From: a virus
IMG/VR virus record: IMGVR_UViG_3300034062_006608
Coordinates: 1 to 52,481 of that record
Length of the DNA: 52,481 nt
Direction: 5' to 3' (one strand)
The position numbers and the translations under genes are program-made. The notes below the pieces were generated by a model that was not told the DNA's origin, did no database searches, and was given only the letters and a program-made list of their open reading frames with translations. Positions within the stretch are counted from its first letter, which is position 1, and each line of letters opens with the position of its first letter. Of this stretch, positions 2,064 to 48,461 are shown one piece after another.

Positions 2064-2741
2064 ATGGAACGTAAACTCACCGATATAATCAAATCTGCTG
2101 AAAGGTTGGGCTATTCTATTGACAAAAGACCTAATAAGCTAAACATCATTGGGGTAAGGAACTCTGCTGCTACTAGCCAAGATAAGTTTGATGACCTGAT
2201 TGCTTATTTCTTTTATGACAAAAATGGAAAGTTAGTCGGTAGAGTTGTATCGGGAACTACTGACCCATCTACTGCTTTTTTGAAAAGCCCCATCAACTTA
2301 AAGGGTGCTGCTATTTTAAAGAGCGGTCAATATAAAGATGCCTACCAAATAGGCTTACACAGAAACAAATATGAAGCCTTAGTTCAAAGAAAGCCTGTAA
2401 CGGTCATAAGAGACGATGACAGAAACGCTTTAATTAACTATTTAGCCCCTACTCAGACGGGTTTATACGGAATCAATATACACAAATCAACAAAAGGAAA
2501 GAATAATGAGGATATAATAGGTTTGGATAGTGCAGGGTGTCAGGTCTTCAGAAACATTCGTGATTTCGAGGATATGATGCAATTAGCCCGAATCAGTAAA
2601 AATAAGTACGGAAACTCTTTTACTTACACACTTTTAGACGATAGGGACTTAATTAAGTTTGCAAATACAAGCGTAGCACTTATTGCGGGTATAGGTTTAG
2701 TTGCTGCATCCATCTACTTCTTTATTAAAAAGTCTAAATAA
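2064..2741 (+). CDS. Phage lysin-like protein (SAGC motif) with C-terminal membrane anchor
   Basis: 225 aa. It has a pattern I recognise from a widespread phage lysin-like family: N-I-x-G-V-R-N near residue 28, TTDPS at 65-69, AILKSGQY at 83-90, GLHRNKYEAL at 97-106, RDDDR, then GINIHK (H140) and DSAGCQVF (C159), ending with FTYTLL. The H-to-Cys arrangement is YkuD-like. A hydrophobic helix at about 204-221 followed by KKSK anchors the C terminus. It follows the beta-lactamase-like gene after 22 nt and overlaps the next start by 1 nt. Peptidoglycan hydrolysis is the likely activity; the exact bond cleaved cannot be read from sequence. Confidence 0.6.
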   Translation: MERKLTDIIKSAERLGYSIDKRPNKLNIIGVRNSAATSQDKFDDLIAYFFYDKNGKLVGRVVSGTTDPSTAFLKSPINLKGAAILKSGQYKDAYQIGLHRNKYEALVQRKPVTVIRDDDRNALINYLAPTQTGLYGINIHKSTKGKNNEDIIGLDSAGCQVFRNIRDFEDMMQLARISKNKYGNSFTYTLLDDRDLIKFANTSVALIAGIGLVAASIYFFIKKSK

Positions 2742-14193: not shown

Positions 14194-14223
14194 CAAATAT
14201 ATGAAACCTTATTTTATTAACAA
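14194..14223 (-). promoter_or_regulatory. Bacteroidota-type promoter for glycan operon
   Basis: On the minus strand TTG (14223-14221), a 19-nt spacer, then TATATTTG (14201-14194), an exact TAnnTTTG match. It ends 28 nt before the ATG at 14166 and overlaps the end of the upstream mucin-like gene. It would let the glycosyltransferase genes be transcribed separately from the virion genes upstream. Confidence 0.6.
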
Positions 14224-15299
14224 GGTGTTTCTGTAGTTAATGTTCCATTACCACTTGTAATTAGCCAATTGTTTGTACCATCAGCATAGTAGTTATCAGG
14301 AGCTAACGCACTTAAAGCACTATCTTGATACAATACAACACTATTAGCAAGTGTTGGAACTGCTGCATAATATGTTATAGGAGCTATACCAAACTCAAGA
14401 CAAGCATTTGCACCACTAACACCATCAACTCCTAAAGGAAAACCATAAAACGCTGCAGTAGTAGTTGTCGTAGTTGTACTAGTTGTAGGAGGCTCTGTTG
14501 TAGTTGTCGTAGTTGTACTAGTTGTAGGAGGCTCTGTTGTAGTTGTCGTAGTTGTACTAGTCGTAGGAGCTTCAGTCGTAGTAGTCGTAGTTGTACTAGT
14601 CGTAGGAGCTTCAGTCGTAGTAGTCGTAGTTGTACTAGTTGTAGGAACGTCTGTAGTAGTAGTCGTAGTTGTACTAGTTGTAGGAACGTCTGTAGTAGTA
14701 GTTGTAGTCGTACTAGTTGTAGGAACGTCTGTAGTAGTAGTCGTAGTTGTACTAGTTGTAGGAACTACAACAGTTGTGGTAGTAGTCGTAGTGCTTGTTG
14801 TCGGTACATCTGTTGTACTTGTAGTTGTTGTACTAGTAGTAGGTACTCCTGTAGTCGTAGTAGTAGTAGTGCTAGTTGAAGGCAGAGTAGTAGACGTTGT
14901 GGTCGTACTAGTTGTAGGAACTGCTGTAGTAGACGTTGTAGTCGTACTAGTTGTAGTACCCGTTGCACAATCACTTACGTTACCATAAACATTAGTATCG
15001 TCTTGAGTATATAAATAATTAACTGAAGATATTGTTTCAGTACAGAAAAAACCAAACCCTAAAGCGTTTAAGGCTGATAAATAAGAATTAAGTGAGTTAG
15101 CTGTGTAACTTAGTGGATATGTAGCACCATTAATTACTATACTTCCTGTTCCACATGATAAATCTATGGTTTGAATATTCCATGAATACTTTGTAGTAGC
15201 ATTAATAGAGTAAATATTCCTTTGTAGTAAGGGAACATTTATATCACAATCTGTATTGTTTTTAACACTGAACTGTACTAATTCTTTTTTCTGTGCCAT
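14217..15299 (-). CDS. Mucin-like Thr-rich repeat protein (putative virion surface)
   Basis: 360 aa in three parts. Residues 1-110 are a beta-rich domain with Cys pairs. Residues about 112-283 are about a dozen 13-residue repeats of the form PTTSTTTTTTTD/E-V/A/P-P, closely resembling the mucin tracts that carry O-glycans. The remaining 77 residues form a small domain ending ...TTETPC at the stop. No signal peptide or membrane helix. A similar Thr tract followed by a domain ending in Cys occurs in the gene at 27650. It leads into the capsid-like gene at 15303 in a run of virion-like genes. Extended, probably glycosylated surface spike is the inference. Confidence 0.6.
   Translation of the reverse strand: MAQKKELVQFSVKNNTDCDINVPLLQRNIYSINATTKYSWNIQTIDLSCGTGSIVINGATYPLSYTANSLNSYLSALNALGFGFFCTETISSVNYLYTQDDTNVYGNVSDCATGTTTSTTTTSTTAVPTTSTTTTSTTLPSTSTTTTTTTGVPTTSTTTTSTTDVPTTSTTTTTTTVVVPTTSTTTTTTTDVPTTSTTTTTTTDVPTTSTTTTTTTDVPTTSTTTTTTTEAPTTSTTTTTTTEAPTTSTTTTTTTEPPTTSTTTTTTTEPPTTSTTTTTTTAAFYGFPLGVDGVSGANACLEFGIAPITYYAAVPTLANSVVLYQDSALSALAPDNYYADGTNNWLITSGNGTLTTETPC
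14455..14965 (-). repeat. 39-bp coding repeats (Thr-rich tract)
   Basis: About a dozen copies of a 39-bp unit encoding the 13-residue Thr/Ser-Pro repeat of the mucin-like protein. Adjacent copies are nearly identical at the DNA level, so copy number is likely to vary by slippage or recombination. Confidence 0.8.
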
Positions 15300-27649: not shown

Positions 27650-28138
27650 TTAACAAGGGAATGTACTAATAATATTACCGCTATTATCTACTTGATAGCT
27701 GTCTGAACCTGCTCCTTGAGAATACCAAAGGTTTCCACCCGCAACAGGAGTTGTTCCACAGCCACCTGAAACATAAAGTATTGTAGGGGCTAAAGCGTTA
27801 TCAGTATCAAACAATGTTAAGGTATTGAAATGGTCGCATGGGTTTATATTGTTAGGATATAGGAAAATTTGCTGACAAGACGCTGTTGTAGTTGTTGTTG
27901 TTGTACTTGTACTTGGTGGTGGTTGTAAGTTCTCTTTTACGACTAACTGATTTGAAGCCTTTGCTGCATAAGAAGGATAAGAAGTATTTATAAATACATA
28001 GAAATCAGCGTCAGCTTTTGTAATCTGCTCTGTGCTTACAGGTATGGTATTTTTTAATACAAACACCCCTGTAGTTACTGCATCTTGAAGATTGTTAAAA
28101 GATATACATTGATTATTTGCAAGAGCAGCCCAACTCAT
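27650..28138 (-). CDS. Fibre-associated protein with Thr linker and Cys-terminal domain
   Basis: 162 aa. The first 75 residues are a small mixed domain; a PPPSTSTTTTTTT linker at about 77-89 leads to a C-terminal domain rich in Gly, Asn and Cys ending NIISTFPC. The end resembles that of the mucin-like protein at 14217 (TTETPC). Its start overlaps the stop of the giant fibre by 1 nt, so it is expressed with the fibre and may cap or assist it. Confidence 0.5.
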   Translation of the reverse strand: MSWAALANNQCISFNNLQDAVTTGVFVLKNTIPVSTEQITKADADFYVFINTSYPSYAAKASNQLVVKENLQPPPSTSTTTTTTTASCQQIFLYPNNINPCDHFNTLTLFDTDNALAPTILYVSGGCGTTPVAGGNLWYSQGAGSDSYQVDNSGNIISTFPC

Positions 28139-31100
28139 TACGCTTCGTATTTTTTAAGTTTGTCTTCTAATTTAGCTATTCTTTCCTCTAAAGTCATCAT
28201 TTTATAGATATGAACTTGATGGTAGTCTACGTTCAATTTACCTTTTTCGTCTGTTCTTACAGAATCAGGCAGTATCTCTTGTACGTTTTGTGCTGAATAT
28301 CCAATATTGATACGGCTGACATCACCTTCTTTCCATTTGAAGTAAATAGGATTGATATTGTCAAATGAGTTTACTCTACAATGAATGTCCTTCAATCTTT
28401 CATCAGAAGATTCAAAGTATGCTTGTGCCCACATACAAGATATAGCACAGAAGTTATTCCAATAGAATGTATTATTACAACCTCCTGTAAAACAAAGACC
28501 GCCACCACCTGAACAATTCCCTGATATAGTAACTGCTCTACCGCCTACTACTGACGAATGTCCACCTGACGATATGTTAAACTCACCACCTAAAATACCT
28601 GAACGATATCCTGATGCAGTGTTACTAAAACCACTTCCAATAAAAGACCTTTGACCTGAAGCTATATTACATACACCACCAACAATAGTAGCATCATATT
28701 GTGATGCAGTATTTGTACTTCCTCCACCAATGAAAGCTCCTGCACAAGTTGCAACATGAGCTGCACCACCAACTATTACAATATTTGCTATATTTCCTGT
28801 GCCACAAGTTGTGTTACCCGTACCGCCTCCTATAAATGCTTGTGGACTTAATGCTCTATTTGTATTTCCACCTCCAATTACTGACCATGCACCTGAAGCA
28901 ATATTACAAGCACCACTTACACCTCCTCCACCACCAATAAATGAGCAGTTTCCTGATGCACAGTTACAATATCCTCCTGCTATTGCCGAATAGCAACCCA
29001 TAGCTTTATTACCATCTCCACCACCTACAGCAGCAACAAAGCCTGTGCAGTTGAAATATCCTCCACCAATTGCTCCATAAGAAGCACAAGCAACGTTTCC
29101 AATACCACCTAAAATACTTGCATAATAATTACCACTAGCTGTATTTTGTTGCCCTCCACCAACTGTATTACAATTACCTGATGCTACGTTAGACACACCA
29201 CCTACTACTACAGAACGATAACCTGAAGCAGTATTACTATCTCCTCCTCCAACAAAACTTCTACCACCACTAGCTGTGTTTGATGCACCACCTGCAACTG
29301 TTGCAAAATATGAACCACTTGCTGTGTTTGATGCACCACCACCCACCGTAGCATAACCTATACCTGAAGCTGTGTTTGAAGCACCCCCTGAAATTACTGC
29401 ATATATACTTGAAGCACCGTTTGAGTTACCTCCTGCTACTGTAGCAGCATACCCTGAAGATGTATTATTGAAACCTGCTGCTACACTATACGTTCCTGAA
29501 GCTCTTGTATTTCTACCACCTGCTGCTGTTGAGGCAAATCCTGTGGCACATACACATATACCTCCACCTGTAAATGTATACGTTGATGATGATGTATTTG
29601 CTACCCCCCCTCCAACAAAAGAAAATGCTCCTGAAGCTGTGTTGTTTGCTCCACCAACTACAGTAGAGCAATTACCTGAAGCAGCGTTCCCTGTTCCACC
29701 ACCAATTGTTGCTACTATTCCTGATGCAGTGTTTGACGAACCACCTGCAATAGTACTAGCTCTGCATCCTGAAACGATATTTAAAGCACCACCACCAATC
29801 GTTGCATCATAAGTTCCTGATGCAGTGTTTTTATAACCACCTGATAATGTACCTGTGATACCTGTTGCACAGTTACAATGACCGCCTCCAATAAAACCAA
29901 AATTCCCCGCTCTATTTAGATAACCACCACCTATCGTTGCACATAAACCTGAAGCTGTGTTTGTAAAACCACCACCTATTGTTGAATAATTACCTGAAGC
30001 AGTGTTTGTTGCACCCCCTGAAACAGTACTTCTAAGTCCTGATGCACCATTTGAAAGACCACCACCAACAGTAGCAAAATAATTACTTGCTGTGTTTGAT
30101 TGTCCACCTGATACAACTGAACGTACATTAGTTGCATTATTCCCAACACCACCACCTATTGTTGCCCCATCTGAACCTGCACTATTTCCATTACCTCCTG
30201 ATACTGTTGTCCAATTATTACAAGATAAGTTTCCTTGTCCACCACCAATAAAAGAACAATTCCCTGATGAGCAGTTTCTTACACCACTTCCAACAGTGGA
30301 ATATACTCCTGTAGCTCTATTACAATATCCTCCTGATATAGTAGAATATGTATTGTTACCTATATTACTATCACCACCACCAATTACTGCATAGTTTCCT
30401 GAAGCTGTGTTTGATGAACCACCTCCAACAAAAGACCTGTTTCCTGTTGCATTGTTTCCAAGACCACCTGCAACAGTTGTCCAAATAGCTGTTACACTAT
30501 TACTATTACCTCCTGCAATCGTAGAATGAGTTCCTGATGCTATATTAGACTGACCTCCTCCTATAAAACTATGACAAGCTGATGCTGTGTTAGAAGTACC
30601 ACCTGCTACCGTAGCACTTACAGTTCCTGATGCAGTGTTACCACTACCTCCTCCCACTGTTGCAAAATAATTACCTGATGCTGAATTGTTTTCTCCACCA
30701 CCTACAAAACTATAAGATGCACCAATAGCTTTATTACCATTACCACCAACAACACTTCCATATATTGCTGTTGCTCTATTTTGAAATCCTCCTCCTATAG
30801 TTGAAAACTGCCCTGCTGTGTATAAGGTTGTTGGTGCTATACAGTATGTTGTACCATTGAAAGTACCACCACTTGTATTATTACCAACACCACCTGCAAT
30901 TGTTGCTCCTGCTGCACAAGTAGAACCTGCACTATTACATATCCAATTGCAAATACCTCCTCCTATTGAAGATTGAGTACCATTTGTATAGTTTCTATAT
31001 CCTCCTGATACTGTTGAACCATATCCTAAACTATTATTAAAATATCCTCCTGATACTACGGTGTAGTAGCCTGAAGCTGTATTTGTATTTCCCCCGCCAA

Positions 31101-34100
31101 CAGATGCAAATCTACAAGCTGTACCACCGCAACCTCCACTAATAGTAGACCAAATACCTACAGCATTGTTACCTTGACCACCTCCAATTGTTGAACAAGC
31201 TGCTGATGCCGTATTGACTATACCTCCTCCAATAGCTGAATAATTTCCAAGTGCTTTATTGTTATCACCTCCACCAACAGCAGCCACAAATCCTGTGCAG
31301 TTATAATAACCACCTGCAATTGCACCATAACCTGTATCACAAGCTATATTACCAATACCACCTGCAACTGTTGTAAAACAACCTGCGGAAGTATTTCCAA
31401 TCCCCCCACCTATCGTTGCACAATTACCTGAAGCTAAGTTTGACTGACCTCCTCCTACAAATGACCTCGAACCTGAAGCTGTGTTCCCTTCACCCCCTCC
31501 TATAGAACTTACAGCACCACTTGCAGTGTTGCATCTACCTGCACCTACAAATGCTCCTAATGAAGAAGCAACATTTAAATAACCACCTGCAATAGTTGAA
31601 GTATCTGCATTTGCTGTATTTTGTAAACCACTACCAATAAAAGAATAATTACCTGATGATGTATTACTTATACCTGCTACTATTGCAGAACGAAGTACTG
31701 ATGCTATATTATTTTCTCCTCCTCCTATAAAAGATGAAGCACCTGAAGCTAAATTGTTATTACCACCTACTACTACACCTCTTGTACCTGTAGAACGATT
31801 ATTACAACCACCAACTACAACAGCAGCATAACCACCTGAAGCAGTGTTTGTACAACCTCCACCAACAAACGACATACAACCTGATGCTGTATTCGATAAA
31901 CCTCCCGCTACAATAGAATTGCTTCCTGAAGATATATTACTTTGTCCACCACCAACTGTTGATTTGTTACCACTAGCTGTGTTTAATGCACCTCCACCAA
32001 TTGTAGCATCATAAGTACCACTTGCTGTGTTGGTAAAACCACCACCAATTGTGCCTGTAACTGATGAAACAAGGTTACAATGACCTCCTGATATAGTACT
32101 ATATGCAGAACAAGACCTATTTGCAAAACCCCCACCAACTGTTGAACAAACCCCAACACCGCAGTTTGAACGTCCACCTGATACTGTAGATTGTGCACCT
32201 AAAGCACTATTAGCCCAACCTCCACCTACTGTAGAACGGTAGCCTGATGCTGTTCCTCCAACACCTCCTGCAACAACACTTTCACTACTTGAATTATTAA
32301 ATGCACCACCTCCAATAGTATTCCAATATCCTGAAACAGAATTTGAATTACCTCCCCCAATTGTAGATTGACAACCATTTACTGTATTGCAAAGACCTCC
32401 CGATATTGTGCCATATCCTGAATTTATAACACGATTACACAATCCACCTGATACTGTAGAGAGTAATGTTGTAGCACAATTAACTAAACCACCGCCAACA
32501 AAAGCTCTGCATCCACTTGATATATTACTACTACCACCGCCAACAAAAGAACCATATCCACTTGCAGTGTTACTATTACCACCTACAACAGACGCAAAAT
32601 ATCCTCCACTTACTGTGTTTGATTGTCCCCCACCTAAAAATGCTCTATTACCACTTATTGAATTTGTACTACCACCTCCGATAGTAGACCATTGAGTTGT
32701 TACAGTATTTGATTGACCACCACTTATAGTAGAGCAATTCCCTTGAGCTGTATTAGAAAGACCCCCACCTATTGCCGAATGAGCCCCTGATGCTGCGTTC
32801 CCACAACCAATACCACCACCACCGCCAATAAAAGAGCAGTTCCCTGATGCTGAATTGACATAACCACCTGCTATGGCTGCATAGTTTCCTAACGCTACGT
32901 TACCATCTCCACCTCCAACAAAACTTACAAAGCCTGTGCGGTTAAAATATCCACCACCAATGTGACCATAAGAACAACAAGTAAGGTTTCCGATACCCCC
33001 ACCTATACTTGAAAAATATAAGCCACTAGCTGTGTTACAAAGCCCCCCTGCAACAGTTGATAAACAACCTTGAGCTGTATTTAATTGTCCTCCACCTATT
33101 GTTGATTTACAACCTGAAGCAACGTTATTTTGTCCACCGCCAATTGAAGCAAAAGCAGATGTTGCATTATTACAATAACCACCTGAAACTGTAGATTGAC
33201 TAGCACTCGCTGTATGGAATAAACCACCGCCAACAAAAGAATTGTCTCCCGAAGCTGTGTTTGACAAACCGCCAACAACTATTGCTCTATATCCTGATGC
33301 CGTTACATTTTGACCTGATAAATTTCCTGAAAAAGCACCTGTTGTATTGTTACTTACTCCACATCTTACAGAAGAACAACTTCCTGCTCCAAGTACGATT
33401 ACAGCACCAACACCTGAAGAACCACTAGAACCACTTGAACCATTCGTTCCTGAGCTGCCACTAGTACCTGAACTTCCTGATGAGCCTGAACTTGCACTAG
33501 TGCCTGAACTTCCTGACGAGCCACTTGAACCACTCGTACCTGACGAACCTGACGTTCCTGAACTTGCACTCGTACCTGACGAGCCACTAGTCCCTGAATT
33601 TCCACTCGTGCCTGAGCTACCTGATGAGCCTGAGCTACCTGATGACCCTGAAGTTGCACTCGTCCCACTGCTACCACTGCTTCCTGACGAACCACTTGAG
33701 CCACTAGTTCCTGACGAACCATTTACTCCTGAAGTGCCTGAGCTACCACTTGAACCTGATGTTGCTGACGAACCTGAGCTTCCACTAGTTCCTGACGTTC
33801 CATTTTCACCTGCAGTGCCTGAGCTTCCACTTGACCCACTTGAGCCTGAAGTAGCACTCGTACCTGAGCTACCATTTGCCCCTGAAGTGCCTGACGAACC
33901 ATTTGTTCCTGACGAACCTGACGAGCCATCAGTTCCTGACGAGCCACTCGTTGCAGAAGTACCTGCACTACCTGAAGTTGCAGAAGTACCTGATGAGCCA
34001 TCCGTTCCACTGCTGCCATTCGTTCCTGAAGTGCCTGAGCTACCTGAAGTTGCTGACGTACCACTTGAAGCTGAAGTACCACTTGAAGCACTCGTACCTG

Positions 34101-36342
34101 AGCTGCCATTCGTTCCACTAGTGCCATTTGCCCCTGACGTACCTGACGTACCACTTGGAGGGTTAAATGTCGTTTGAGCGTATGAGTAGTTACTCGTACC
34201 CTCTGTGTAAAATGTTATATTATGATTAGCAGAACCGCCCGTAAATTCAGCATAAATTTGACAATAAAGCCTATCTGTTGCGTTTAATGCGGTTTGACCT
34301 AAAAATAAATCTGTAAAAAATTCTTTAATTACTCCATTAGATAATGATTCTGTATCAAGATTTGTAGTACCTAAAAGAGTAGAAGTACCGCCCGTTGTGT
34401 AACTATAAAGTTCTACGTCTACTGCAACATCTTTATTTGAATCAATTGAAAAGTGTGTTACCCAAGCCCAATTCCCTGCAGGAATATTTGTTAAATTAGG
34501 TACACCTGAGTCTGTTGCATATGTTGCAATTAATGTTCTTGTATTTACAGCTACATTTGTAACTATAGTTTGCTCTGCTCCTACTACTGCTGTAGGAGAC
34601 CATTGTTTATATGTAGGACTGCCAAAAGCAGAATTTGTATTTAAAGACTGATTTAGATAGTATACTAGACCACCCGCAACACCACTCACACCACTTGTAC
34701 CTGTTGTACCTGAGCTTCCTGACGATGCAGAAGTACCACTTGATGCACTCGTTCCTGAGCTACCTGAAGTTGCAGACGTGCCACTAGTACCTGACGAACC
34801 TGAGCTACCATCCGTACCATTTGTACCTGACGAACCTGAAGTTGCAGAAGTACCACTTGATGCACTCGTACCTGAGCTACCACTCGAACCACTCGTGCCA
34901 CTCGTACCTGTAGTTCCTGACGAGCCTGAACTTGCTGAAGTACCTGAGCTGCCACTTGAACCACTAGTGCCTGAACTAGCACTCGTACCTGACGAACCAT
35001 CAGTACCTGAGCTTCCATCCGTTCCTGCCGTACCTGCAGTGCCTGAAGAACCACTTGATGCAGAAGTTCCTGAGCTGCCTGAAGTACCTGCCGATGCACT
35101 CGTACCTGAAGTGCCACTTGAAGCACTCGTTCCTGACGAACCATCAGTGCCTGAGCTACCATCCGTTCCTGAGCTGCCATCCGTACCACTAGTGCCTGTA
35201 GTTCCTGACGAACCTGAACTAGCACTCGTACCTGATGAACCACTTGAACCTGACGTTGCAGACGTGCCTGACGTTCCTGCTGTACCTGAAGAGCCTGAAC
35301 TTGCACTCGTGCCCGAAGAACCACTTGAACCACTCGTTCCTGAGCTACCTGATGAGCCACTTGACCCTGAAGTTGCAGATGTACCACTACTTGCAGACGT
35401 ACCACTACTTGCACTCGTTCCACTAGAACCTGACGTGCCTGATGTCCCTGCCGTACCCGAAGAGCCACTTAGACTCTTTTGATTCATAATAGCAGTGGTG
35501 TTATTTATCTTTATATATACAGGGTAAGCATCACCGATAGCGGGAGGAGTAACTGATAAGTTATTCAAACCACTTGGGTCAAAATATAGTACATCACCCA
35601 CGTTACCAACAAGAGTAGGTAAGCCACTAACGATACGACCAACGGGTCTTACACGAAGATTACCATTTTCAGGGGTATCAGCAGAAGTGACCATACCCGC
35701 TATCTGAACGATATTGGGCTCTAAAGTAGAAGTTACTTTGACAAATTTTCCTGAGCTGTTGATTTTAACGAAATCACCAACGGCAATACCTGAATAAGTA
35801 TCGTCATCGGGGTCAATGCAGAAAAAGTCAGTTATATAGTTTCTGAATCTAAACCTATCATGTAGGTCATTAAGCCAATTGGATAAGTCTCCGATTTGGC
35901 TTCTAATTTGTTCTGTTGCTACAACAATAGGTAGCCCATCGTCACCTAATCTAAAAATAACACCTACGAAACCTTCAGGAGGGAAGTTATTTCCCATGCC
36001 TGTATTATCAACAACAAGATTGTAAAGGTCTACGTCTTGTAGAGTTACGGTACAGCTTGTATTAAACTCACCGCCAATATTTGAAACAGAAAGTATCTTG
36101 TAGCAGTTACCATTTGGTAAGCCAAGCCACATTCCAACTTCAATATTTGTAGAAGTATAGTAAAGAGGTGGAGTAGTATCGTAACTACTCGTCTCTTGTA
36201 TTTCAATAGTTAAATCACATTCAAAAGTGAATGGAGAGCCATTCCAAGGACTAAGTGCATTTACATAGGTCGATACTACACTTGTAGAACCGAAGTTTAT
36301 ACTTGCAGGTATTGTAATAGGTGGTTTTATCAAACTCGCCAT
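28138..36342 (-). CDS. Giant fibre: collagen-like, YadA-like beta-roll repeats, S74 chaperone
   Basis: 2734 aa. Residues 1-290: N-terminal attachment domain. About 290-555 and 730-980: Pro-free collagen-like Gly-X-Y runs (GSSGTSG/GTSASSG) flanking a beta domain at about 555-730. About 1000-2610: about one hundred 15-residue repeats of the type S-T-I-G-G-G-x-x-N-T-A-S-G, like the YadA head beta-roll. About 2640-2734: peptidase S74 intramolecular chaperone (SSDERLKDI, FKWKEGDVSRINIGYSAQNVQEILPD, C-terminal coiled coil), which trimerises and cleaves itself off. It is a receptor-binding fibre or host-adhesion spike. Ser/Thr/Asn-rich loops are candidate acceptors for the nearby glycosyltransferases. 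Confidence 0.85.
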   Translation of the reverse strand: MASLIKPPITIPASINFGSTSVVSTYVNALSPWNGSPFTFECDLTIEIQETSSYDTTPPLYYTSTNIEVGMWLGLPNGNCYKILSVSNIGGEFNTSCTVTLQDVDLYNLVVDNTGMGNNFPPEGFVGVIFRLGDDGLPIVVATEQIRSQIGDLSNWLNDLHDRFRFRNYITDFFCIDPDDDTYSGIAVGDFVKINSSGKFVKVTSTLEPNIVQIAGMVTSADTPENGNLRVRPVGRIVSGLPTLVGNVGDVLYFDPSGLNNLSVTPPAIGDAYPVYIKINNTTAIMNQKSLSGSSGTAGTSGTSGSSGTSASSGTSASSGTSATSGSSGSSGSSGTSGSSGSSGTSASSGSSGTAGTSGTSATSGSSGSSGTSASSGSSGTTGTSGTDGSSGTDGSSGTDGSSGTSASSGTSGTSASAGTSGSSGTSASSGSSGTAGTAGTDGSSGTDGSSGTSASSGTSGSSGSSGTSASSGSSGTTGTSGTSGSSGSSGTSASSGTSATSGSSGTNGTDGSSGSSGTSGTSATSGSSGTSASSGTSASSGSSGTTGTSGVSGVAGGLVYYLNQSLNTNSAFGSPTYKQWSPTAVVGAEQTIVTNVAVNTRTLIATYATDSGVPNLTNIPAGNWAWVTHFSIDSNKDVAVDVELYSYTTGGTSTLLGTTNLDTESLSNGVIKEFFTDLFLGQTALNATDRLYCQIYAEFTGGSANHNITFYTEGTSNYSYAQTTFNPPSGTSGTSGANGTSGTNGSSGTSASSGTSASSGTSATSGSSGTSGTNGSSGTDGSSGTSATSGSAGTSATSGSSGTDGSSGSSGTNGSSGTSGANGSSGTSATSGSSGSSGSSGTAGENGTSGTSGSSGSSATSGSSGSSGTSGVNGSSGTSGSSGSSGSSGSSGTSATSGSSGSSGSSGSSGTSGNSGTSGSSGTSASSGTSGSSGTSGSSGSSGSSGTSASSGSSGSSGTSGSSGTNGSSGSSGSSGVGAVIVLGAGSCSSVRCGVSNNTTGAFSGNLSGQNVTASGYRAIVVGGLSNTASGDNSFVGGGLFHTASASQSTVSGGYCNNATSAFASIGGGQNNVASGCKSTIGGGQLNTAQGCLSTVAGGLCNTASGLYFSSIGGGIGNLTCCSYGHIGGGYFNRTGFVSFVGGGDGNVALGNYAAIAGGYVNSASGNCSFIGGGGGIGCGNAASGAHSAIGGGLSNTAQGNCSTISGGQSNTVTTQWSTIGGGSTNSISGNRAFLGGGQSNTVSGGYFASVVGGNSNTASGYGSFVGGGSSNISSGCRAFVGGGLVNCATTLLSTVSGGLCNRVINSGYGTISGGLCNTVNGCQSTIGGGNSNSVSGYWNTIGGGAFNNSSSESVVAGGVGGTASGYRSTVGGGWANSALGAQSTVSGGRSNCGVGVCSTVGGGFANRSCSAYSTISGGHCNLVSSVTGTIGGGFTNTASGTYDATIGGGALNTASGNKSTVGGGQSNISSGSNSIVAGGLSNTASGCMSFVGGGCTNTASGGYAAVVVGGCNNRSTGTRGVVVGGNNNLASGASSFIGGGENNIASVLRSAIVAGISNTSSGNYSFIGSGLQNTANADTSTIAGGYLNVASSLGAFVGAGRCNTASGAVSSIGGGEGNTASGSRSFVGGGQSNLASGNCATIGGGIGNTSAGCFTTVAGGIGNIACDTGYGAIAGGYYNCTGFVAAVGGGDNNKALGNYSAIGGGIVNTASAACSTIGGGQGNNAVGIWSTISGGCGGTACRFASVGGGNTNTASGYYTVVSGGYFNNSLGYGSTVSGGYRNYTNGTQSSIGGGICNWICNSAGSTCAAGATIAGGVGNNTSGGTFNGTTYCIAPTTLYTAGQFSTIGGGFQNRATAIYGSVVGGNGNKAIGASYSFVGGGENNSASGNYFATVGGGSGNTASGTVSATVAGGTSNTASACHSFIGGGQSNIASGTHSTIAGGNSNSVTAIWTTVAGGLGNNATGNRSFVGGGSSNTASGNYAVIGGGDSNIGNNTYSTISGGYCNRATGVYSTVGSGVRNCSSGNCSFIGGGQGNLSCNNWTTVSGGNGNSAGSDGATIGGGVGNNATNVRSVVSGGQSNTASNYFATVGGGLSNGASGLRSTVSGGATNTASGNYSTIGGGFTNTASGLCATIGGGYLNRAGNFGFIGGGHCNCATGITGTLSGGYKNTASGTYDATIGGGALNIVSGCRASTIAGGSSNTASGIVATIGGGTGNAASGNCSTVVGGANNTASGAFSFVGGGVANTSSSTYTFTGGGICVCATGFASTAAGGRNTRASGTYSVAAGFNNTSSGYAATVAGGNSNGASSIYAVISGGASNTASGIGYATVGGGASNTASGSYFATVAGGASNTASGGRSFVGGGDSNTASGYRSVVVGGVSNVASGNCNTVGGGQQNTASGNYYASILGGIGNVACASYGAIGGGYFNCTGFVAAVGGGDGNKAMGCYSAIAGGYCNCASGNCSFIGGGGGVSGACNIASGAWSVIGGGNTNRALSPQAFIGGGTGNTTCGTGNIANIVIVGGAAHVATCAGAFIGGGSTNTASQYDATIVGGVCNIASGQRSFIGSGFSNTASGYRSGILGGEFNISSGGHSSVVGGRAVTISGNCSGGGGLCFTGGCNNTFYWNNFCAISCMWAQAYFESSDERLKDIHCRVNSFDNINPIYFKWKEGDVSRINIGYSAQNVQEILPDSVRTDEKGKLNVDYHQVHIYKMMTLEERIAKLEDKLKKYEA
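28510..33360 (-). repeat. 45-bp coding repeats (YadA-like 15-residue units)
   Basis: About one hundred degenerate 45-bp units encoding the beta-roll part of the giant fibre. Phase is held by a GGG-x-x-N core, with occasional 1-2 residue insertions and longer loops near 30840-30960. It is coding, not CRISPR: units are contiguous with no spacers. Confidence 0.85.
33405..34160 (-). repeat. Collagen-like repeat region 2 of giant fibre
   Basis: Gly-Ser-Ser/Gly-Thr-Ser triplet repeats without Pro, residues about 730-980 of the fibre. Ala or Asn/Asp replaces Gly or X positions at intervals (SASSG, TNGSSG). Highly repetitive DNA prone to length change. Confidence 0.75.
34675..35475 (-). repeat. Collagen-like repeat region 1 of giant fibre
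   Basis: Gly-X-Y triplets of Ser/Thr/Ala, residues about 290-555 of the fibre. The opposite strand gives long Pro/Glu/Val-rich frames that are shadows of this repeat. Confidence 0.75.
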
Positions 36343-37097: not shown

Positions 37098-37107
37098 TAT
37101 AATTTAT

Positions 37108-41112: not shown

Positions 41113-41562
41113 TTATTTTTTAAATAAGTACAAAGAAGAAGCAAAACCTATCATATTATTGCCATCTTCAGAAACTTGATACCAACCTGCAACCTGTGAA
41201 GGGCTGCCGTAAAGGGTACTTCCGTTTGCTACCTTCTTTACTATTTCAGATTTTGCACTTGGAGTCTTTCTAATATTTAGATTACTACCTAGTGTTTTAA
41301 CCTGATATGCTTGTTTAGAGCCTGTGTTTAAGAATAAAGCAGCTAATGGGTTTGTAAGTGCTAAATTAGCTGATACAAGTGCATTTTTTTGCTCTTCTGT
41401 TAATTCAGTAGATGTTGAAGCTGTAGGGTCAATACTTGTAGTTTCTCCTTCAACTTTTGGAGCATCTTTTTTACCGAATAGCTTTCCTCTAAAAGCATAG
41501 AGTAAACCACCTACAGCTAATACACTTGCAACCCCGATTAATATTTTTGTATTCTTTTCCAT
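41113..41562 (-). CDS. Membrane-anchored SH3b-domain protein
   Basis: 149 aa. N-terminal transmembrane helix (about 7-24). An acidic linker leads to a C-terminal bacterial SH3 domain: SNLNIRKTPSAKSEIVKKVANGSTLYGSPSQVAGWYQVS ... GFASSLYLFKK (residues about 93-149). SH3b domains bind cell-wall peptides, so this may tether the virion membrane to peptidoglycan, complementing the PG_binding_1 protein at 17685. Confidence 0.7.
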   Translation of the reverse strand: MEKNTKILIGVASVLAVGGLLYAFRGKLFGKKDAPKVEGETTSIDPTASTSTELTEEQKNALVSANLALTNPLAALFLNTGSKQAYQVKTLGSNLNIRKTPSAKSEIVKKVANGSTLYGSPSQVAGWYQVSEDGNNMIGFASSLYLFKK

Positions 41563-42708: not shown

Positions 42709-43410
42709 TTAGTTAGTTTTTTTAGCTTTTACAATAAGGTATATAGCTGTGATTGCTACTAATACACCTGCACCAACAATGATGTATGTTGTAACACTAG
42801 TTTTCTTACTAGGCTTACCCATATTTGCTCTTAGCTCATCTTGTTGAGCTTGTAAAGCTGCAGCTTGATTAGTGATGTTATTAGCATCAGCCTGAGTTCT
42901 ATTGTTTATTCTATTCAAGCCAATTTGAATACCTGCATTTACAGTTTCTTGACTAGTAAGTGCTCTACCAATATTAGATAGCAATAGACCTACACCTGTT
43001 TTTCCTTGAGGATTTTCGGCTGTAACTCTTGCCTTCTTTCTTGCAGCAGCAGCCTGAGCATCAGCAGCTCTTTTTGCAGCTCTTTCAGCAGCAGTCATAT
43101 TATAAAAATCATCAGCTCCTGTGAATTGAAAATCGTCAATTCCTGTAAAGCCAAAATCCTGTGAGCTACCAACAAATGATAAGGTTTCACCTGCCTCTTT
43201 AACTTTTCCTGTTAAAAAATCAGCTAACTCATTTTTGAAGTTTGTACTTTTAGCTGAAGCCATCAAAACGGCAATAGTAACTTCTTTGTCAGAAGGATTG
43301 TTACCTACTACAACTCCGTTTCTTTTAAGTAATCTTACTAAACCATCTTTATCAGTAACTACAGCGTATGATAACGCTTCCTCTGTTACTTGTAGTGCAC
43401 TTACTGCCAT
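42709..43410 (-). CDS. Tail-anchored virion-like protein with tandem FTG motifs
   Basis: 233 aa. N-terminal helical domain; then FGFTGIDDFQFTGADDFYNM at 86-105 with two tandem FTG-x-D-D-F motifs, preceded by SFVGSSQDF. An Ala/Lys/Arg-rich helix (AAERAAKRAADAQAAAARKKARVTAE) and a Gln/Ala coiled region follow, with a transmembrane helix at about 211-227. Motifs match the capsid candidate at 44248, which is three genes upstream. Confidence 0.65.
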   Translation of the reverse strand: MAVSALQVTEEALSYAVVTDKDGLVRLLKRNGVVVGNNPSDKEVTIAVLMASAKSTNFKNELADFLTGKVKEAGETLSFVGSSQDFGFTGIDDFQFTGADDFYNMTAAERAAKRAADAQAAAARKKARVTAENPQGKTGVGLLLSNIGRALTSQETVNAGIQIGLNRINNRTQADANNITNQAAALQAQQDELRANMGKPSKKTSVTTYIIVGAGVLVAITAIYLIVKAKKTN

Positions 43411-43733: not shown

Positions 43734-44156
43734 TTATTTTTTAGTTGTTATGATTGCGAAGGCAATTAACACAGCTCCTGCAAACATTAACATACCTGTT
43801 TCCGAAGTTAATTTTTTATTGTCAGCAACTTGTTGTGCTGCTTGAGCTTGAAGCTGACCTGAGAAGTTCATGTAAGATTCAAGAATATTTTTATTTGGAT
43901 TTGAAGCGGTACAAGTACAGCCATCAGGCTTTTTACCGTACTTCTTTTCGAAGTAGTCCATGAACAATTCTTTGTCAGGGTTATTTTCGATAATTTCCAT
44001 TAATATAGGTTCGCCCTCGTAGGACACGAGTTGCTGTAAAACCGTAGAAAGAGGTTGGTCTCTGTCAAATTCGTAGCCATGTCTATGTGCCAACGATTTC
44101 ACAAAATATGGATTCGCTGCAGCGGTGTATGCGTATATGTTTACATTACTCGACAT
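43734..44156 (-). CDS. Tail-anchored virion-like protein
   Basis: 140 aa from the ATG at 44156 (MSSNVNIYAYTAAANPYFV); the codon three positions upstream is TTG, so I prefer this start. C-terminal helix at about 123-137. Helical soluble part with HGYEFDRDQPLSTVLQQLVS and PDGCTCTASNPNKN. Separated from the capsid gene by a bidirectional terminator. Confidence 0.55.
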   Translation of the reverse strand: MSSNVNIYAYTAAANPYFVKSLAHRHGYEFDRDQPLSTVLQQLVSYEGEPILMEIIENNPDKELFMDYFEKKYGKKPDGCTCTASNPNKNILESYMNFSGQLQAQAAQQVADNKKLTSETGMLMFAGAVLIAFAIITTKK

Positions 44157-44182
44157 GATATGCAATTTAGTGAATTAAAAGT

Positions 44183-44247: not shown

Positions 44248-44949
44248 TTAACGAGCAGCAGGTCTGATAATCTTTGGACTACCGTATTGCTTAGAAACAG
44301 GGTCTCCGTTTAAGCCACGAGCAATATTGATGTTATCAGAAGGGTAGAATTGGAACTGAACTGAAGTTGCAGCAAATACGCTGAAAGTCAATTTAGTGAA
44401 ACCATCGATACGGAATGGTTGCTTTAATTCAATTACACCACTTTGGTTCTGATATGGGTCGATTACAGGTGTCAAGATTTTAACCGCTTGGTTACCGTTA
44501 GCGTCTTGAGTAGTTAATGTAATCGGTTGTAACACTTGACTAGTTACACCATTTACTGAGCTAATCAAAGTAGAACCGATTGTGAAAGGGCTTACACTTG
44601 ATTGGTTAAGTAAGTTGTAATAAGTTGTGTTAGAAAGGTTAGACGTAATGGTTACGTTGTTTACAGTTAAAGAACCTGCAGAGAAACCTGCATTGTTCAA
44701 GTAAACGTAAGCACCAAATACATCTACAGAAACTGCAGCGTTTGAAGCGTTAGAAACTGTGATGATGTAAGGTTGAGACTTCATCATACCTGCTGCTGCC
44801 ATAGGAGCTGCTGCAGTAGAAGCGTCAGCTGCACTGAAGAAGTTTTCTGCACCTGTAAAATAGGTTTCGTCTGCGAAACCGTCTACACCAATAAACTGCT
44901 CGTTAATAGAGCGGTTAGCTTGTTGTAAGTACTTTTGAATACTAGACAT
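44248..44949 (-). CDS. Putative major capsid protein (jelly-roll-like)
   Basis: 233 aa, no membrane helix. Residues 20-38 contain GVDGFADETYFTGAENFF with one FTG motif. From about 58 onwards the chain is a run of alternating beta strands (YIITVSNASNAAVSVDVFGAYVYL, GSLTVNNVTITSNL, VIDPYQNQSGVIELKQPFRIDGFTKLTFSVFAATSVQFQFYPSD) as in single jelly-roll coats. It is isolated between a terminator and its own promoter region, and close to a packaging ATPase. Residues 141-193 are homologous to the protein at 15303. The capsid role is inferred; no family was confirmed. Confidence 0.5.
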   Translation of the reverse strand: MSSIQKYLQQANRSINEQFIGVDGFADETYFTGAENFFSAADASTAAAPMAAAGMMKSQPYIITVSNASNAAVSVDVFGAYVYLNNAGFSAGSLTVNNVTITSNLSNTTYYNLLNQSSVSPFTIGSTLISSVNGVTSQVLQPITLTTQDANGNQAVKILTPVIDPYQNQSGVIELKQPFRIDGFTKLTFSVFAATSVQFQFYPSDNINIARGLNGDPVSKQYGSPKIIRPAAR

Positions 44950-45007
44950 TGTGAATTAATTTATTTTTTTTTAAAAATTTGATTTGTTGTAGTTAGTTCC
45001 TTATGAA

Positions 45008-45115
45008 TTAAGCACCAATCTTAGCTTTGTCAAGCAACGGCTTAACTGCTAACATATAAAGGGCTACACCCGCTGTTACTACTAAAACTTTACCTGCAAG
45101 AGATTTGAAGTCCAT
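45008..45115 (-). CDS. 35-aa single-helix membrane peptide
   Basis: MDFKSLAGKVLVVTAGVALYMLAVKPLLDKAKIGA: one transmembrane helix with Lys at the end. It lies directly upstream of the capsid gene, in the same transcription unit, and 66 nt downstream of the -7 promoter element. A minor membrane-associated virion protein is likely from position. Confidence 0.55.
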   Translation of the reverse strand: MDFKSLAGKVLVVTAGVALYMLAVKPLLDKAKIGA

Positions 45116-45292
45116 TTTTTTCTAATTTAAGTTTTTAAGAATGATTGTGTATCAACTGAATACAGATTCAAATGACATACCAAACCTATGTACTTAATTT
45201 TAATTGATAATTAAATATAATTACTTTGTTTACTACAATCATTAGTAGCAAAATGGCTTAATTTAATACTTTATATTGCTTTTGTTTGTAGC
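45116..45292 (-). promoter_or_regulatory. Promoter region for capsid transcript
   Basis: A 177-bp AT-rich stretch with no gene. On the minus strand TAGGTTTG (45188-45181) is an exact match to the Bacteroidota -7 element TAnnTTTG, 66 nt upstream of the ATG of the small gene at 45008. No clear -33 TTG lies at the expected distance, so an activator or a viral sigma factor may replace it. Confidence 0.5.
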
Positions 45293-45327
45293 AAAAAAAA
45301 TCCCCAATAGAATTAACTAAAGGGGAT
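45293..45327 (-). terminator. Intrinsic terminator after packaging ATPase gene
   Basis: Stem ATCCCC/GGGGAT (45300-45305 with 45322-45327) around a 16-nt loop, followed on the minus strand by eight U residues. It closes the transcript from 46-52 kb just downstream of the ATPase stop and insulates the capsid promoter. Confidence 0.7.
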
Positions 45328-45351
45328 AAAACGAAAAACTCAACATATAAA

Positions 45352-46173
45352 CTATCCTATATACTGAGCAAGTAGCCTTCTTTTAACTTCAGCTCTTGCA
45401 GTATTATCATTGTATTTTTTCTTATTCTTTTCGTCTTTGAGCACCAAATAAGGATTTGTAAGGGCTCTGAAGTTTTCGCTAATATATTGCTCTACAGCAT
45501 CTTCAATCATTTCTTGGCTATAGTTACCTCTGATATTTGATTCGTCCATGTCTACATAGCAGTAAAACCTCTTGTTGCCTGAATCGTACTGAGTGTTTAC
45601 CATTATTTCAGCAATACGCATATACTCAAACTTATCAGGGAATTTATTTTTATGCCTTTCTACTGATTCCACATTCTTATGAAATCTTAATTGGTTTAGA
45701 TTACCCCAAAGTTTAGTTACAATACGACCAATAGACTGATAAGACAGAATAATGTCTAATCCAACGTGACGATTTGTAGCAATAGCACCCACTAAATCAG
45801 AAGGCATATGGTCACCAATAAATTTAGAAGGGTCTTCAATTACTAAAAGTCCATTTTTAAAAGTGCTTAATACATAGAACAAAGCCTGAGCCCATTCGTC
45901 TAGTGTCATTCTAGTTCCGTTGGGGTGGAAAGGTCTTATCCTTCTAACTTCTACATGGGGGTGAATAGTAAAAAGCCCTACATCATTAAGCGACAAAGCT
46001 CTAATTCCAAATACTCCGTACTCATCGTTTACGTCCATTACAAGAGCCTTACGACCTTTAATGCCATGATAAGGGTCTCCTTCTACATATTTGTTTATGG
46101 TAATCATGTGAGCCCACGTCTTTCCCACACCTTTTTTACCAACTGCTGCCATCAATAAAGGTTCTCTTCCCAT
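45352..46173 (-). CDS. FtsK/HerA-superfamily packaging-type ATPase
   Basis: 273 aa. Walker A GKKGVGKTW (12-20), KALVMDVNDEYG strand at about 42-53, Walker B GLLVIEDPS (108-116) and a sensor-like DIILSYQSIGR (140-150). Size and layout match the genome-packaging ATPases of non-tailed dsDNA viruses with an internal membrane; HerA/Zot-like relatives are alternatives. It sits with unknown genes upstream and the capsid candidate downstream, as is common in those viruses. No second ATPase or terminase is seen in the window. Confidence 0.7.
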   Translation of the reverse strand: MGREPLLMAAVGKKGVGKTWAHMITINKYVEGDPYHGIKGRKALVMDVNDEYGVFGIRALSLNDVGLFTIHPHVEVRRIRPFHPNGTRMTLDEWAQALFYVLSTFKNGLLVIEDPSKFIGDHMPSDLVGAIATNRHVGLDIILSYQSIGRIVTKLWGNLNQLRFHKNVESVERHKNKFPDKFEYMRIAEIMVNTQYDSGNKRFYCYVDMDESNIRGNYSQEMIEDAVEQYISENFRALTNPYLVLKDEKNKKKYNDNTARAEVKRRLLAQYIG

Positions 46174-48059: not shown

Positions 48060-48461
48060 TTACCAACCTGAAATTATATTTTTTAATTTACCGCCATTTT
48101 GTTTAAACCACTCTTTGCCTATCACTCTTAGCTTTACATCAGGGTGATATTTAGCCATCCTTTTAATCTTTGTTGCTGACTTTGCATCCATGTAGCCCTT
48201 TATTTCAATCCATTCCTCTGAGCCACTAGGAAAAATGACCATAAAATCAGGTTTATAGTTATTTGTTCCCCTCTTTATTCCCTCAAACCAAAAGGTCTTA
48301 GGTTCGTGCTGCCATTCAATTACATGACCATGCTTTTTCATAAACTCCAAATACAAAGCATATCTATATTCCCATCTGCTTCTATAAAAGTTTCTTTTAC
48401 CACCAATTTCAGCCCAATCTTGTTTCCAAGTGGACTTACCGTCTTTTAAGTGTATTTGCAT
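48060..48461 (-). CDS. PD-(D/E)xK endonuclease (phage resolvase-like)
   Basis: 133 aa. SRWEYRYALYLE (E31), WQHEPKTFWFEG, YKPDFMV (D72) and WIEIKGYMD (E86-x-K88) form a complete PD-(D/E)xK site of the T7 endonuclease I/Vsr-like type. Probably cleaves branched DNA such as Holliday junctions before packaging or takes part in recombination with RecT. The 1-nt overlap with the phosphatase gene suggests coupling. Confidence 0.75.
   Translation of the reverse strand: MQIHLKDGKSTWKQDWAEIGGKRNFYRSRWEYRYALYLEFMKKHGHVIEWQHEPKTFWFEGIKRGTNNYKPDFMVIFPSGSEEWIEIKGYMDAKSATKIKRMAKYHPDVKLRVIGKEWFKQNGGKLKNIISGW

Follow-up and report, generated by a model that had tools for sequence, protein, structure and literature searches.

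The DNA analysed here, which we call the window, is a viral stretch of 52,481 nucleotides (IMG/VR record IMGVR_UViG_3300034062_006608, positions 1 to 52,481). A gene cluster on its minus strand encodes an FtsK/HerA-type ATPase, a very short membrane peptide, and a protein with a jelly-roll fold, with a promoter element ahead of the last two genes (Table 1). Both larger open reading frames (ORFs) lie where the initial annotation had placed them; the peptide falls below the size limit of the ORF list. Relatives of the jelly-roll protein, the 44248 product, were found on 58 IMG/VR contigs and two MAG contigs.

Table 1. Features of the window discussed in the text
Feature	Position	Strand	Basis or remark
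Endolysin-like protein	2064..2741	+	C-terminal membrane helix 203-221
RecT single-strand annealing protein	4100..4963	-	Pfam PF03837, 1.9e-28
Miniature B-family DNA polymerase candidate, 251 aa	6993..7748	-	AF2 fold and structural matches
Terminal-protein candidate, basic (57 K+R, 36 D+E)	7765..8619	-	Beside polymerase
Vertex spike candidate: conserved N-terminal domain, Thr-rich stalk, variable tip	14217..15299	-	Place after paralog
Second jelly-roll-family protein, 165 aa	15303..15800	-	Capsid paralog, E 4.5e-10; profile-profile 98.1%
Fibre or spike protein, 2734 aa, C-terminal S74 chaperone domain	28138..36342	-	PF13884, 1.3e-7 (C-terminal piece)
Membrane-anchored SH3 domain protein, candidate wall-binding virion protein	41113..41562	-	PF08239, 9.1e-7; helix 6-24
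Single-helix membrane protein with FTGIDDF and FTGADDF, virion candidate	42709..43410	-	Helix prediction
Single-helix membrane protein, virion candidate	43734..44165	-	Helix prediction
Major capsid protein candidate, single jelly roll, 233 aa	44248..44949	-	AF2 model, fold matches, relatives
Single-helix membrane peptide, 35 aa, MDFKSLAGKVLVVTAGVALYMLAVKPLLDKAKIGA	45008..45115	-	Candidate packaging-vertex or capsid-membrane peptide
GAATCTGTATTC element in capsid leader	45158..45169	-	Leader alignment
TAnnTTTG promoter element, Bacteroidota type, for peptide and capsid genes	45181..45188	-	Conserved place; alignment of six leaders
Packaging ATPase candidate, FtsK/HerA superfamily, 273 aa	45352..46173	-	hhalign ranks, DUF87, place
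Nuclease, TnsA-like	48060..48461	-	DUF1064, 3.4e-6

The leader of the capsid candidate is conserved across the group. At 56 of 60 loci the reading frame of a one-helix membrane peptide of 30 to 45 aa stops no more than 80 nt before the capsid gene. TAnnTTTG, which we take to be the Bacteroidota-type promoter consensus, stands 150 to 320 nt upstream of the capsid match at 58 of 60 loci, whereas shuffling predicts 9.0, and this supports the earlier proposal that 44248 has its own promoter. The evidence is the fixed place of the element before the capsid gene, because TAnnTTTG is not enriched over the whole window (68 versus 75.7); a sigma-70 scan of the window gave nothing of note (13 versus 9.7) and did not pick up this site. 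The 11-letter core of GAATCTGTATTC recurs at 11 of 19 loci tested, all close relatives, with no exact match at the other eight. A terminator of its own had also been ascribed to 44248. The minus strand has three terminator-like sites, all of them within the ORF; downstream of it there is none.

The AF2 model of the 44248 product is a beta sandwich of the jelly-roll type over residues 61 to 200 (block means of pLDDT 70 to 94), with a disordered N-terminal arm that carries YFTGAENFF. The fold is a single jelly roll, not a double one, with one domain of about 150 residues, and the jelly-roll likeness noted earlier is thus borne out by both the model and its fold matches. These matches were middling, with Z at most 5.8, no PDB structure at E 0.001 or better, and seven BFVD entries at that level, mostly collagen/C1q-like or uncharacterised proteins. 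The model therefore establishes a jelly roll, not a capsid. The matches include carbohydrate-binding modules and phage fibres, and none of the 50 fold matches listed is a known single-jelly-roll capsid protein of Halopanivirales/Singelaviria, an absence that does not speak against kinship. No sequence match to a known capsid protein appeared in Pfam, PHROGs, INPHARED phages, PDB sequence profiles, or a reference set of 354 ORFs from PRD1, PM2, P23-77, IN93, SH1, FLiP, phi29, and T7, where the capsid profile (A3) reached at best 6.6% over 12 columns, with no convincing similarity to VP16/VP17 or VP4/VP7. Such similarity is low within Singelaviria too: according to PMC6414509, SH1-type and P23-77 capsid proteins share under 20% identity. 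One contig, G031, additionally encodes a tandem double jelly roll of 397 aa.

The neighbouring gene encodes the packaging ATPase candidate. Its FtsK/HerA type, as initially annotated, is supported by Pfam DUF87 (HerA central domain): with the threshold set at E 0.05, 20 of the 39 family members match this model, the best at 1.1e-5; the window's copy itself had no match in the Pfam search. We compared profiles by hhalign with the 354 ORFs, a set drawn entirely from those eight phages and viruses. Ranks 1 to 4 were the packaging ATPases of P23-77, IN93, SH1, and PM2 (89.4, 84.1, 42.5, and 33.4%, the SH1 match spanning 36 columns), followed by T7 gp19 (4.5%), phi29 gp16 (6.3%), and PRD1 P9 (6.1%), which does not outscore those of T7 and phi29. 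Within this set, packaging ATPases of tailless membrane phages come closer to the group's ATPase than do those of T7 and phi29. All 57 contigs that extend far enough upstream of the capsid gene carry the ATPase gene there, and distances for the two proteins correlate (r 0.816, 34 taxa). Sequence searches gave nothing useful for the capsid protein, ATPase, and 15303 paralog against Pfam and PHROGs, for the first two against INPHARED phages, or for profiles of the ATPase, capsid protein, and polymerase against PDB sequences. The best PDB rows for the ATPase span no more than the Walker A region of ClpB.

Spike proteins and lectins often contain jelly rolls. With carbohydrate-binding modules and phage fibres among its fold matches, the 44248 product could also decorate a shell or form a spike, the shell being built of another, unrecognised protein, possibly in a highly diverged tailed phage. 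Some PHROG tail-fibre families do match proteins of the relative G002. We consider this reading unlikely, since 44248 and the ATPase occur together in 57 of 57 contigs with enough DNA, and since 44248 varies little among relatives while the spike-like protein varies much. The terminase model PF03237, which finds the T7 control, matched none of 20 contigs of 52 to 102 kb. The portal and HK97 models (PF04860 and PF05065) likewise matched none of the 20, but both also miss T7, so their silence counts for little and leaves the tailed-phage alternative some room. PHROG scans of 113 of the 115 ORFs of contig G015 and 109 of the 114 ORFs of G002 revealed no true terminase among the best 25 of 72 and 69 families, respectively. 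The G015 "terminase large subunit" matches fall on one 823-aa AAA ATPase whose matched stretch, from about 150 to 521, looks intein-like by eye, and a "virion structural protein" match covered only 51 residues of a small protein. The missing tail genes, initially suspected as a possible window effect, are no such effect for the families tested in contigs of this size. Terminal repeats, a B-family polymerase fold, and a terminal-protein candidate (see below) add a resemblance to PRD1, although phi29, which is small and tailed, also replicates in this way.

A paralog of the capsid candidate, the 15303 product, is encoded about 28 kb from 44248 in the window, and a separate copy of it occurs in 15 of 16 and 22 of 29 contigs, together 37 of 45. 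Its profile (A8) found nothing convincing among the 354 reference ORFs (3.3% best among the rows shown). It may be a penton or a second capsid protein. The second role would make the same kind of virus one with two major capsid proteins in mixed capsomers, in the style of VP16/VP17 of P23-77 or VP4/VP7 of sphaerolipoviruses, and the group a giant branch of Singelaviria (Helvetiavirae), which is characterised by two vertical single-jelly-roll major capsid proteins. The frequency of the paralog pair, an ATPase nearest those of P23-77, IN93, and SH1, and a linear genome ending in terminal repeats like that of Sphaerolipoviridae (PMC12643093) are in keeping with this arrangement, which we regard as possible but doubtful: the two genes are far apart and not neighbours as in P23-77 and SH1, and known single-jelly-roll capsid proteins gave no convincing sequence match. 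In addition, of 10 contigs read, 7 have a spike-like gene after the small paralog, which suits a penton. Most likely, the 15303 paralog and the 14217 spike candidate would together form the vertices.

The right end of the window is a contig end, and G002 runs about 33 kb further. Inverted terminal repeats occur in 4 of 19 contigs examined, the window itself having none, and indicate linear genomes of about 72 to 85 kb; other contigs of the group reach 102 kb. The window is best explained as roughly two thirds of a linear double-stranded DNA genome. Such a genome exceeds those of the tailless membrane viruses described from prokaryotes, as initially noted for those of bacteria. In the genomes with terminal repeats, the polymerase candidate and the putative terminal protein lie near one end. 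The AF2 model of the 6993 product (pLDDT 86.6) has B-family polymerases as 40 of its best 50 structural matches listed (Z up to 9.3), with a best Foldseek E of 0.0099. The motif A Asp and the second motif C Asp are invariant in 22 polymerase rows. None of the 23 rows keeps the first Asp of motif C, and 22 of them have Lys or Arg instead. At 251 aa, the modelled protein would have little room for an exonuclease or for TPR1/TPR2. The candidate occurs in 23 of 34 contigs, with a relative of the 7765 protein adjacent in 20 of the 23 loci. This place suggests that the 7765 product is a terminal protein and that replication in the group is protein primed. At the place of the TnsA-like nuclease, the G015 protein matches Holliday junction resolvase families. 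The endolysin-like product had no match in the Pfam search; its G002 counterpart matches PHROG 3000 (9.5e-35) and a PHROG endolysin (2.1e-11).

The initial annotation counted about 25 proteins with a single transmembrane helix. Among the 74 window ORFs of 60 aa or more, a loose cut-off gave 21 (mean of the shuffles 11.4, maximum 19; T7, 2 of 42) and a strict one 14, with the 35-aa peptide to be added. The strict counts were 2 of 19 in PRD1, 4 of 23 in SH1, and 0 of 42 in T7, with one extra protein with more helices in SH1 and one in T7. The window's share is close to that of SH1; contig G010 has only 13 of 117. These predicted proteins would suit an internal membrane in the particle. Four window proteins contain FTG-x-D/E-x-F, five times in all (0.46 on average in shuffles, maximum 3), and G002 has five occurrences too (0.91, maximum 4). 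Counts in G015 (1), G010 (2), and G006 (2) are within shuffles, and the motif is thus no family signature.

Taken together, the window is most probably part of the genome of a tailless, probably internal-membrane virus of Bacteroidota (probability about 0.85), with 44248 as the likely major capsid protein of its group. The initial reading of a large non-tailed membrane virus is upheld, with the membrane and the capsid role as parts that we infer. Of the observations behind it, the ORFs, fold, ATPase type, and promoter stood, and the lack of matches to the tested terminase, portal, and HK97 families extends to contigs of up to 102 kb; the terminator and the membrane protein count were not confirmed. 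The lack of a Shine-Dalgarno signal (4 of 69 versus 3.2) and the TAnnTTTG promoter point indirectly to Bacteroidota as the host. The two MAG matches are short contigs, one binned as Bacteroidetes and one as Chlamydiales. FtsK/HerA ATPases serve in conjugation too, and the element could in principle be a linear plasmid or satellite that has a HerA-type transfer ATPase and no capsid of its own. This is very improbable given the endolysin-like proteins, the S74 fibre, the spike-like gene, and the capsid-type gene order.

Such a virus might work as follows. The 44248 single jelly roll, with its disordered arm, would form capsomers around a vesicle whose membrane is packed with one-helix proteins of the virus, and the 15303 paralog and the neighbouring 14217 spike would most likely occupy the vertices. 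The HerA-type ATPase would sit at one special vertex and pump in the linear genome, and the 35-aa peptide may belong to a membrane conduit, compare P9 with P20/P22 in PRD1. The 7765 terminal protein would prime copying from the inverted terminal repeats, and the stripped-down 6993 polymerase would do the copying. Tentatively, the group could stand between SPV1 (single jelly roll, no packaging ATPase) and Singelaviria, with one single-jelly-roll capsid protein, a derived penton, an ATPase, a genome near 100 kb, the tandem fusion in G031, and protein-primed replication by perhaps the smallest known B-family replicase. The G031 fusion would then show in nature a second instance of the single-to-double step once suggested for Varidnaviria.

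The group looks like a widespread tail-free group of bacterial viruses with genomes four to ten times those of PRD1, PM2, and P23-77. We found no description of it in open-licence PMC papers, and it is apparently undescribed so far. If the reading is true, tailless membrane viruses of bacteria can equal ordinary tailed phages in size (72 to 102 kb). The group would then be a test case for the kinship of single and double jelly-roll capsid proteins, for replication of such viruses with terminal repeats and without a canonical polymerase, and for the lower size limit of replicative B-family polymerases.

Among known systems, the Thermus phages P23-77 and IN93 (Matsushitaviridae, Singelaviria) have the nearest packaging ATPases (89.4 and 84.1%) and share single-jelly-roll capsid proteins and an ATPase gene upstream of the capsid genes. 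Unlike the group, they have circular genomes of 17 to 20 kb, two neighbouring capsid genes, and no annotated B-family polymerase, and no capsid sequence similarity was found. The Sphaerolipoviridae (SH1, HHIV-2, HCIV-1) share linear double-stranded DNA with inverted terminal repeats, and the SH1 ATPase ranks third. They have two single-jelly-roll proteins, against two paralogs here, one of them modelled as a single jelly roll, and terminal proteins attached to their DNA, against a candidate gene here. They infect archaea, have genomes of 28 to 31 kb, and lack a canonical polymerase (PMC12643093), whereas the group has a polymerase candidate and falls outside that size range at about 72 to 102 kb. 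The candidate family Huracanviridae (ANME-1 viruses PBV264 and PBV238) is described in PMC9894754 as tailless with single-jelly-roll capsid proteins related to Helvetiavirae; it resembles the group by this description and differs in its archaeal host.

The order of ATPase, tiny membrane peptide, and capsid gene recurs in PM2 (Corticoviridae; P9, P7 of 34 aa, P2) and PRD1 (Tectiviridae; P9-ORFi-P20-P3), and PRD1 also has a terminal protein beside its polymerase. Both have a double-jelly-roll capsid protein and, unlike the group, genomes of 10 to 15 kb; PRD1 P9 is not specially near the group's ATPase (6.1%). The double jelly roll of PM2 is stated in PMC6414509, and prokaryotic double-jelly-roll viruses are given genomes under 20 kb in PMC8812541 and of 7 to 18 kb in PMC5894146. 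Like phi29-type protein-primed polymerases, the polymerase fold of the group is found beside a terminal-protein-like gene close to an end of a linear genome with terminal repeats. The phi29 polymerase gene encodes 572 aa, against 251 aa and a replaced first motif C Asp here, and phi29 is a tailed phage, unlike the tailless virus proposed for this group.

We found the jelly-roll capsid candidate (the 44248 protein) and the FtsK/HerA-type ATPase candidate where the initial annotation placed them, in a window that is itself a virus record in IMG/VR (52,481 bp). Singly, neither protein matched Pfam or PHROG at E 0.1 or, by tblastn, any of 50,697 phage records. Scans with the capsid protein and then its alignment recovered relatives at 59 loci in 58 IMG/VR contigs of 7 to 102 kb; two further relatives come from short contigs of MAGs, with bins assigned to Bacteroidetes (75% identity) and Chlamydiales (55% identity). 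The group is broad, since clustering of its 60 capsid proteins leaves 37 clusters at 95% identity, 25 at 90%, and 6 at 70%. Contig G020 carries two capsid genes in tandem.

Coordinates of features in the window and in related contigs
Feature	Contig	Position (strand)	Length
PolB candidate	window	6993-7748(-)	251 aa
Basic protein, terminal-protein candidate	window	7765-8619(-)	
Spike candidate	window	14217-15299(-)	
Capsid paralog (15303)	window	15303-15800(-)	165 aa
APS kinase-like and sulfotransferase genes	window	18776-20091(-)	
Capsid candidate (44248)	window	44248-44949(-)	233 aa
One-helix peptide	window	45008-45115(-)	35 aa
Palindrome-like GAATCTGTATTC, directly 3' of capsid promoter	window	45158-45169(-)	
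ATPase candidate	window	45352-46173(-)	273 aa
Homing-endonuclease-like gene	window	50763-51398(-)	
MAKGG/MADGG protein gene, right arm	G002	C1:56669-62950	
AAA ATPase with intein-like stretch	G015	L051:11989-14457	
Tandem capsid genes	G020	C1:35950-36525, 36675-37250	
Tandem jelly-roll protein	G031	C1:17225-18415	397 aa

The AlphaFold2 model of the 44248 protein, built on a 41-row alignment, had a mean pLDDT of 71.8 and a pTM of 0.60, with ten-residue block averages of 70 to 94 across residues 61 to 200 and values below 50 in stretches 15 to 56 and 216 to 233. Nothing that Foldseek matched in the PDB reached E 0.001; its best PDB rows were largely jelly-roll or similar beta-sandwich proteins (carbohydrate-binding modules, Cry toxin, phage fibres, nucleoplasmin-like HDT2, cupins, satellite tobacco mosaic virus coat, and picornavirus VP3). 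Fifty VIA-align rows included the coats of cowpea mosaic, satellite tobacco mosaic, cowpea chlorotic mottle, and brome mosaic viruses, along with AlgX, nucleoplasmins, and others, with Z at most 5.8. Seven BFVD matches reached E 0.001, most of them to uncharacterised or collagen/C1q-like proteins, and rank 15 was a grapevine fanleaf virus coat (probability 1.00, TM 0.52 by target length). The predicted structure shows a single jelly roll, and together with these fold matches it bears out the fold initially proposed; the fold alone is insufficient to establish a capsid role.

The ATPase was compared, as a 39-row family profile, with 354 mechanically called ORFs of at least 100 aa from eight reference phages by hhalign. 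Within this phage set the packaging-type assignment was supported, as the four top scores belonged to P23-77 (89.4%, 157 columns), IN93 (84.1%, 152 columns), SH1 (42.5%, 36 columns), and PM2 P9 (33.4%, 55 columns), followed by T7 gp19 (4.5%), phi29 gp16 (6.3%), and PRD1 P9 (6.1%). At E 0.05, the Pfam HerA domain DUF87 matched 20 of the 39 members, with a best value of 1.1e-5, and AAA_22 matched 26 (best, 9.1e-5). The ATPase gene lies 298 to 3097 bp 5' of the capsid match on the same strand in all 57 contigs that extend far enough; three more contigs are too short on that side, their match beginning at most 764 bp from the contig end. Pairwise distances of the two proteins correlated (r = 0.816, 34 taxa, uncorrected for shared ancestry).

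The 402-nt gap between the two window genes contains the one-helix peptide ORF, with TAnnTTTG, which we take to be the Bacteroidota -7 element, on its 5' side. By script, a hydrophobic peptide of 30 to 45 aa ending at most 80 nt from the capsid match was found at 56 of 60 loci, and TAnnTTTG was present 150 to 320 nt 5' of the match at 58 (9.0 expected from shuffling). At two loci without a scored peptide (L092 and L095), the membrane peptide encoded 5' of the capsid gene contains an expanded KIT repeat and is cut short by an early stop; in L111 and L112, also the two TAnnTTTG misses, the match begins within the capsid protein, and L111 has such a peptide farther 5'. Only 4 of 69 genes have a Shine-Dalgarno-like site in front of them (3.2 from shuffling), a lack of signal that, like TAnnTTTG, would fit a Bacteroidota host. 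The gene order is that of PM2 (ATPase P9, P7 of 34 aa, capsid P2); in PRD1 the genes run P9, ORFi, P20 (42 aa), and P3. The transmembrane proteins P20 and P22 of PRD1 are assigned to its packaging conduit (PMC4267777), and the window peptide may have a similar conduit role. The core of the palindrome-like sequence occurs in 11 of 19 loci tested, those 11 being the close relatives. Separately, an FTG-x-D/E-x-F motif occurs at five places in four virion-block proteins of the window (38306, 42709, 44248, and 51723) versus 0.46 from shuffling, with no enrichment in distant relatives.

The window encodes a second, smaller jelly-roll-family protein, 15303, whose sequence marks it as a paralog of 44248 (E 4.5e-10; profile-profile 98.1% across 97 columns), and the two could possibly both be major capsid proteins. 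A paralog copy apart from the capsid gene was present in 15 of 16 contigs of one set and 22 of 29 of another, the latter including two copies with a stop within the match. Identity to the window copy is 25 to 92%, more variable than for the capsid protein (52 to 98%; the sets overlap without being identical). In seven of ten contigs read, the gene 3' of the paralog encodes a protein of 223 to 1364 aa whose N-terminal domain is conserved and whose remainder is variable, and in five of them Thr-rich; in the other three (G004, G011, and G013), ORF picking took other frames. Such a pair would suit a penton and its spike. G031 (102,228 bp; loci L110 and L176) encodes both single-domain proteins and a protein with two such domains in tandem. 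Its halves match the capsid profile at 1.9e-45 and 1.9e-42 (rows L110 to L112 left out), and the halves are 34% identical to one another (E 4e-30). Origin of double jelly rolls by fusion of single ones is an older proposal, disputed in PMC8812541.

Perfect inverted repeats occupy the exact ends of G015 (74,101 bp; 653-bp repeat), and G034 (72,545 bp) likewise ends exactly in an inverted repeat, of 123 bp. Two more contigs show an inner portion of the repeat in off-set positions, 114 bp in G002 and 57 bp in G009; the full repeats would then measure 905 and 696 bp, and the genomes ~85.0 and ~76.4 kb. Assembly can produce perfect repeats at contig ends as an artefact, which is less likely here because the repeats are off-set in two contigs. 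Of the 19 contigs tested, the remaining 15, including the window, had no terminal inverted repeats and are taken as incomplete.

The PolB candidate has three PolB motifs by eye and no Pfam match. Relatives occur in 23 of 34 contigs, ~3 to 9 kb from one end in four terminal-repeat contigs and deeper inside some others (G037). All 22 aligned members keep Asp106 of motif A and Asp204 of motif C; the first Asp of motif C is replaced in all 23 rows, by Lys or Arg in 22 and by Asn in the other. Its AlphaFold2 model (pLDDT 86.6, pTM 0.82) had, among 50 structural matches listed, 40 family-B polymerases (Pol alpha, KOD/Tgo, E. coli Pol II, RB69, phi29, HSV, and monkeypox among them), 7 herpesvirus replication complex chains, and 3 family-A polymerases, as sorted by title; the best had Z 9.3 over 145 residues (rmsd 3.7). 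Foldseek rows (best E 0.0099) were PolB-rich, with reverse transcriptases and unrelated proteins. At 20 of 23 loci the basic protein adjoins the PolB candidate, where phi29 and PRD1 have their terminal protein, making it a terminal-protein candidate; the two may act in protein priming. Sphaerolipoviruses are described as lacking a canonical polymerase and probably using protein priming (PMC12643093), and by profile among the 354 reference ORFs SH1 had no relative of the PolB candidate.

The initial annotation had reported no terminase, portal, or tail gene. For terminase this stood: PF03237 matched 0 of 20 contigs and does detect T7. Portal PF04860 and capsid PF05065 also matched 0 of 20, weak evidence because neither model detects T7. 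PHROG scans gave no terminase among the best 25 of 69 families in G002 (109 of 114 proteins) or, save the intein-like stretch of an AAA protein, among the best 25 of 72 in G015 (113 of 115 proteins; a repeat scan of 92 covered the best 25 of 37). We rejected that G015 "terminase," as the matches fall on the stretch interrupting the AAA ATPase; because it draws such annotations, a pipeline could call this virus tailed. Tail-fibre-type matches among G002's best 25 of 69 families can come from spikes.

Other genes were noted. The homing-endonuclease-like gene (PHROG 314, 6.2e-15) is missing from G002, a near relative in which its two flanks adjoin. The right arm of G002 encodes very large proteins, the longest of 2093 aa, that contain many MAKGG/MADGG motifs and are possibly injected polyvalent proteins. 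The APS kinase-like and sulfotransferase genes lie near several glycosyltransferase-like genes (by eye), possibly for glycan or virion modification.

The best reading of the window and its relatives, to which we give a probability of roughly 85%, is a tailless membrane virus, based on the ATPase-membrane peptide-jelly-roll module, the ATPase kinship with P23-77, IN93, SH1, and PM2, the terminal repeats, the endolysin-like and fibre genes, and the lack of a match to any tested tailed-phage family. We found no such group described in the open-licence literature searched. The ATPase suggests membership in Singelaviria, which the capsid protein does not show. Known here from its genes, the virus would work in the same way as PRD1, PM2, and P23-77; what sets the group apart is its polymerase candidate and its size, 72 to 102 kb among group contigs and genomes, in line with the large genome initially proposed.
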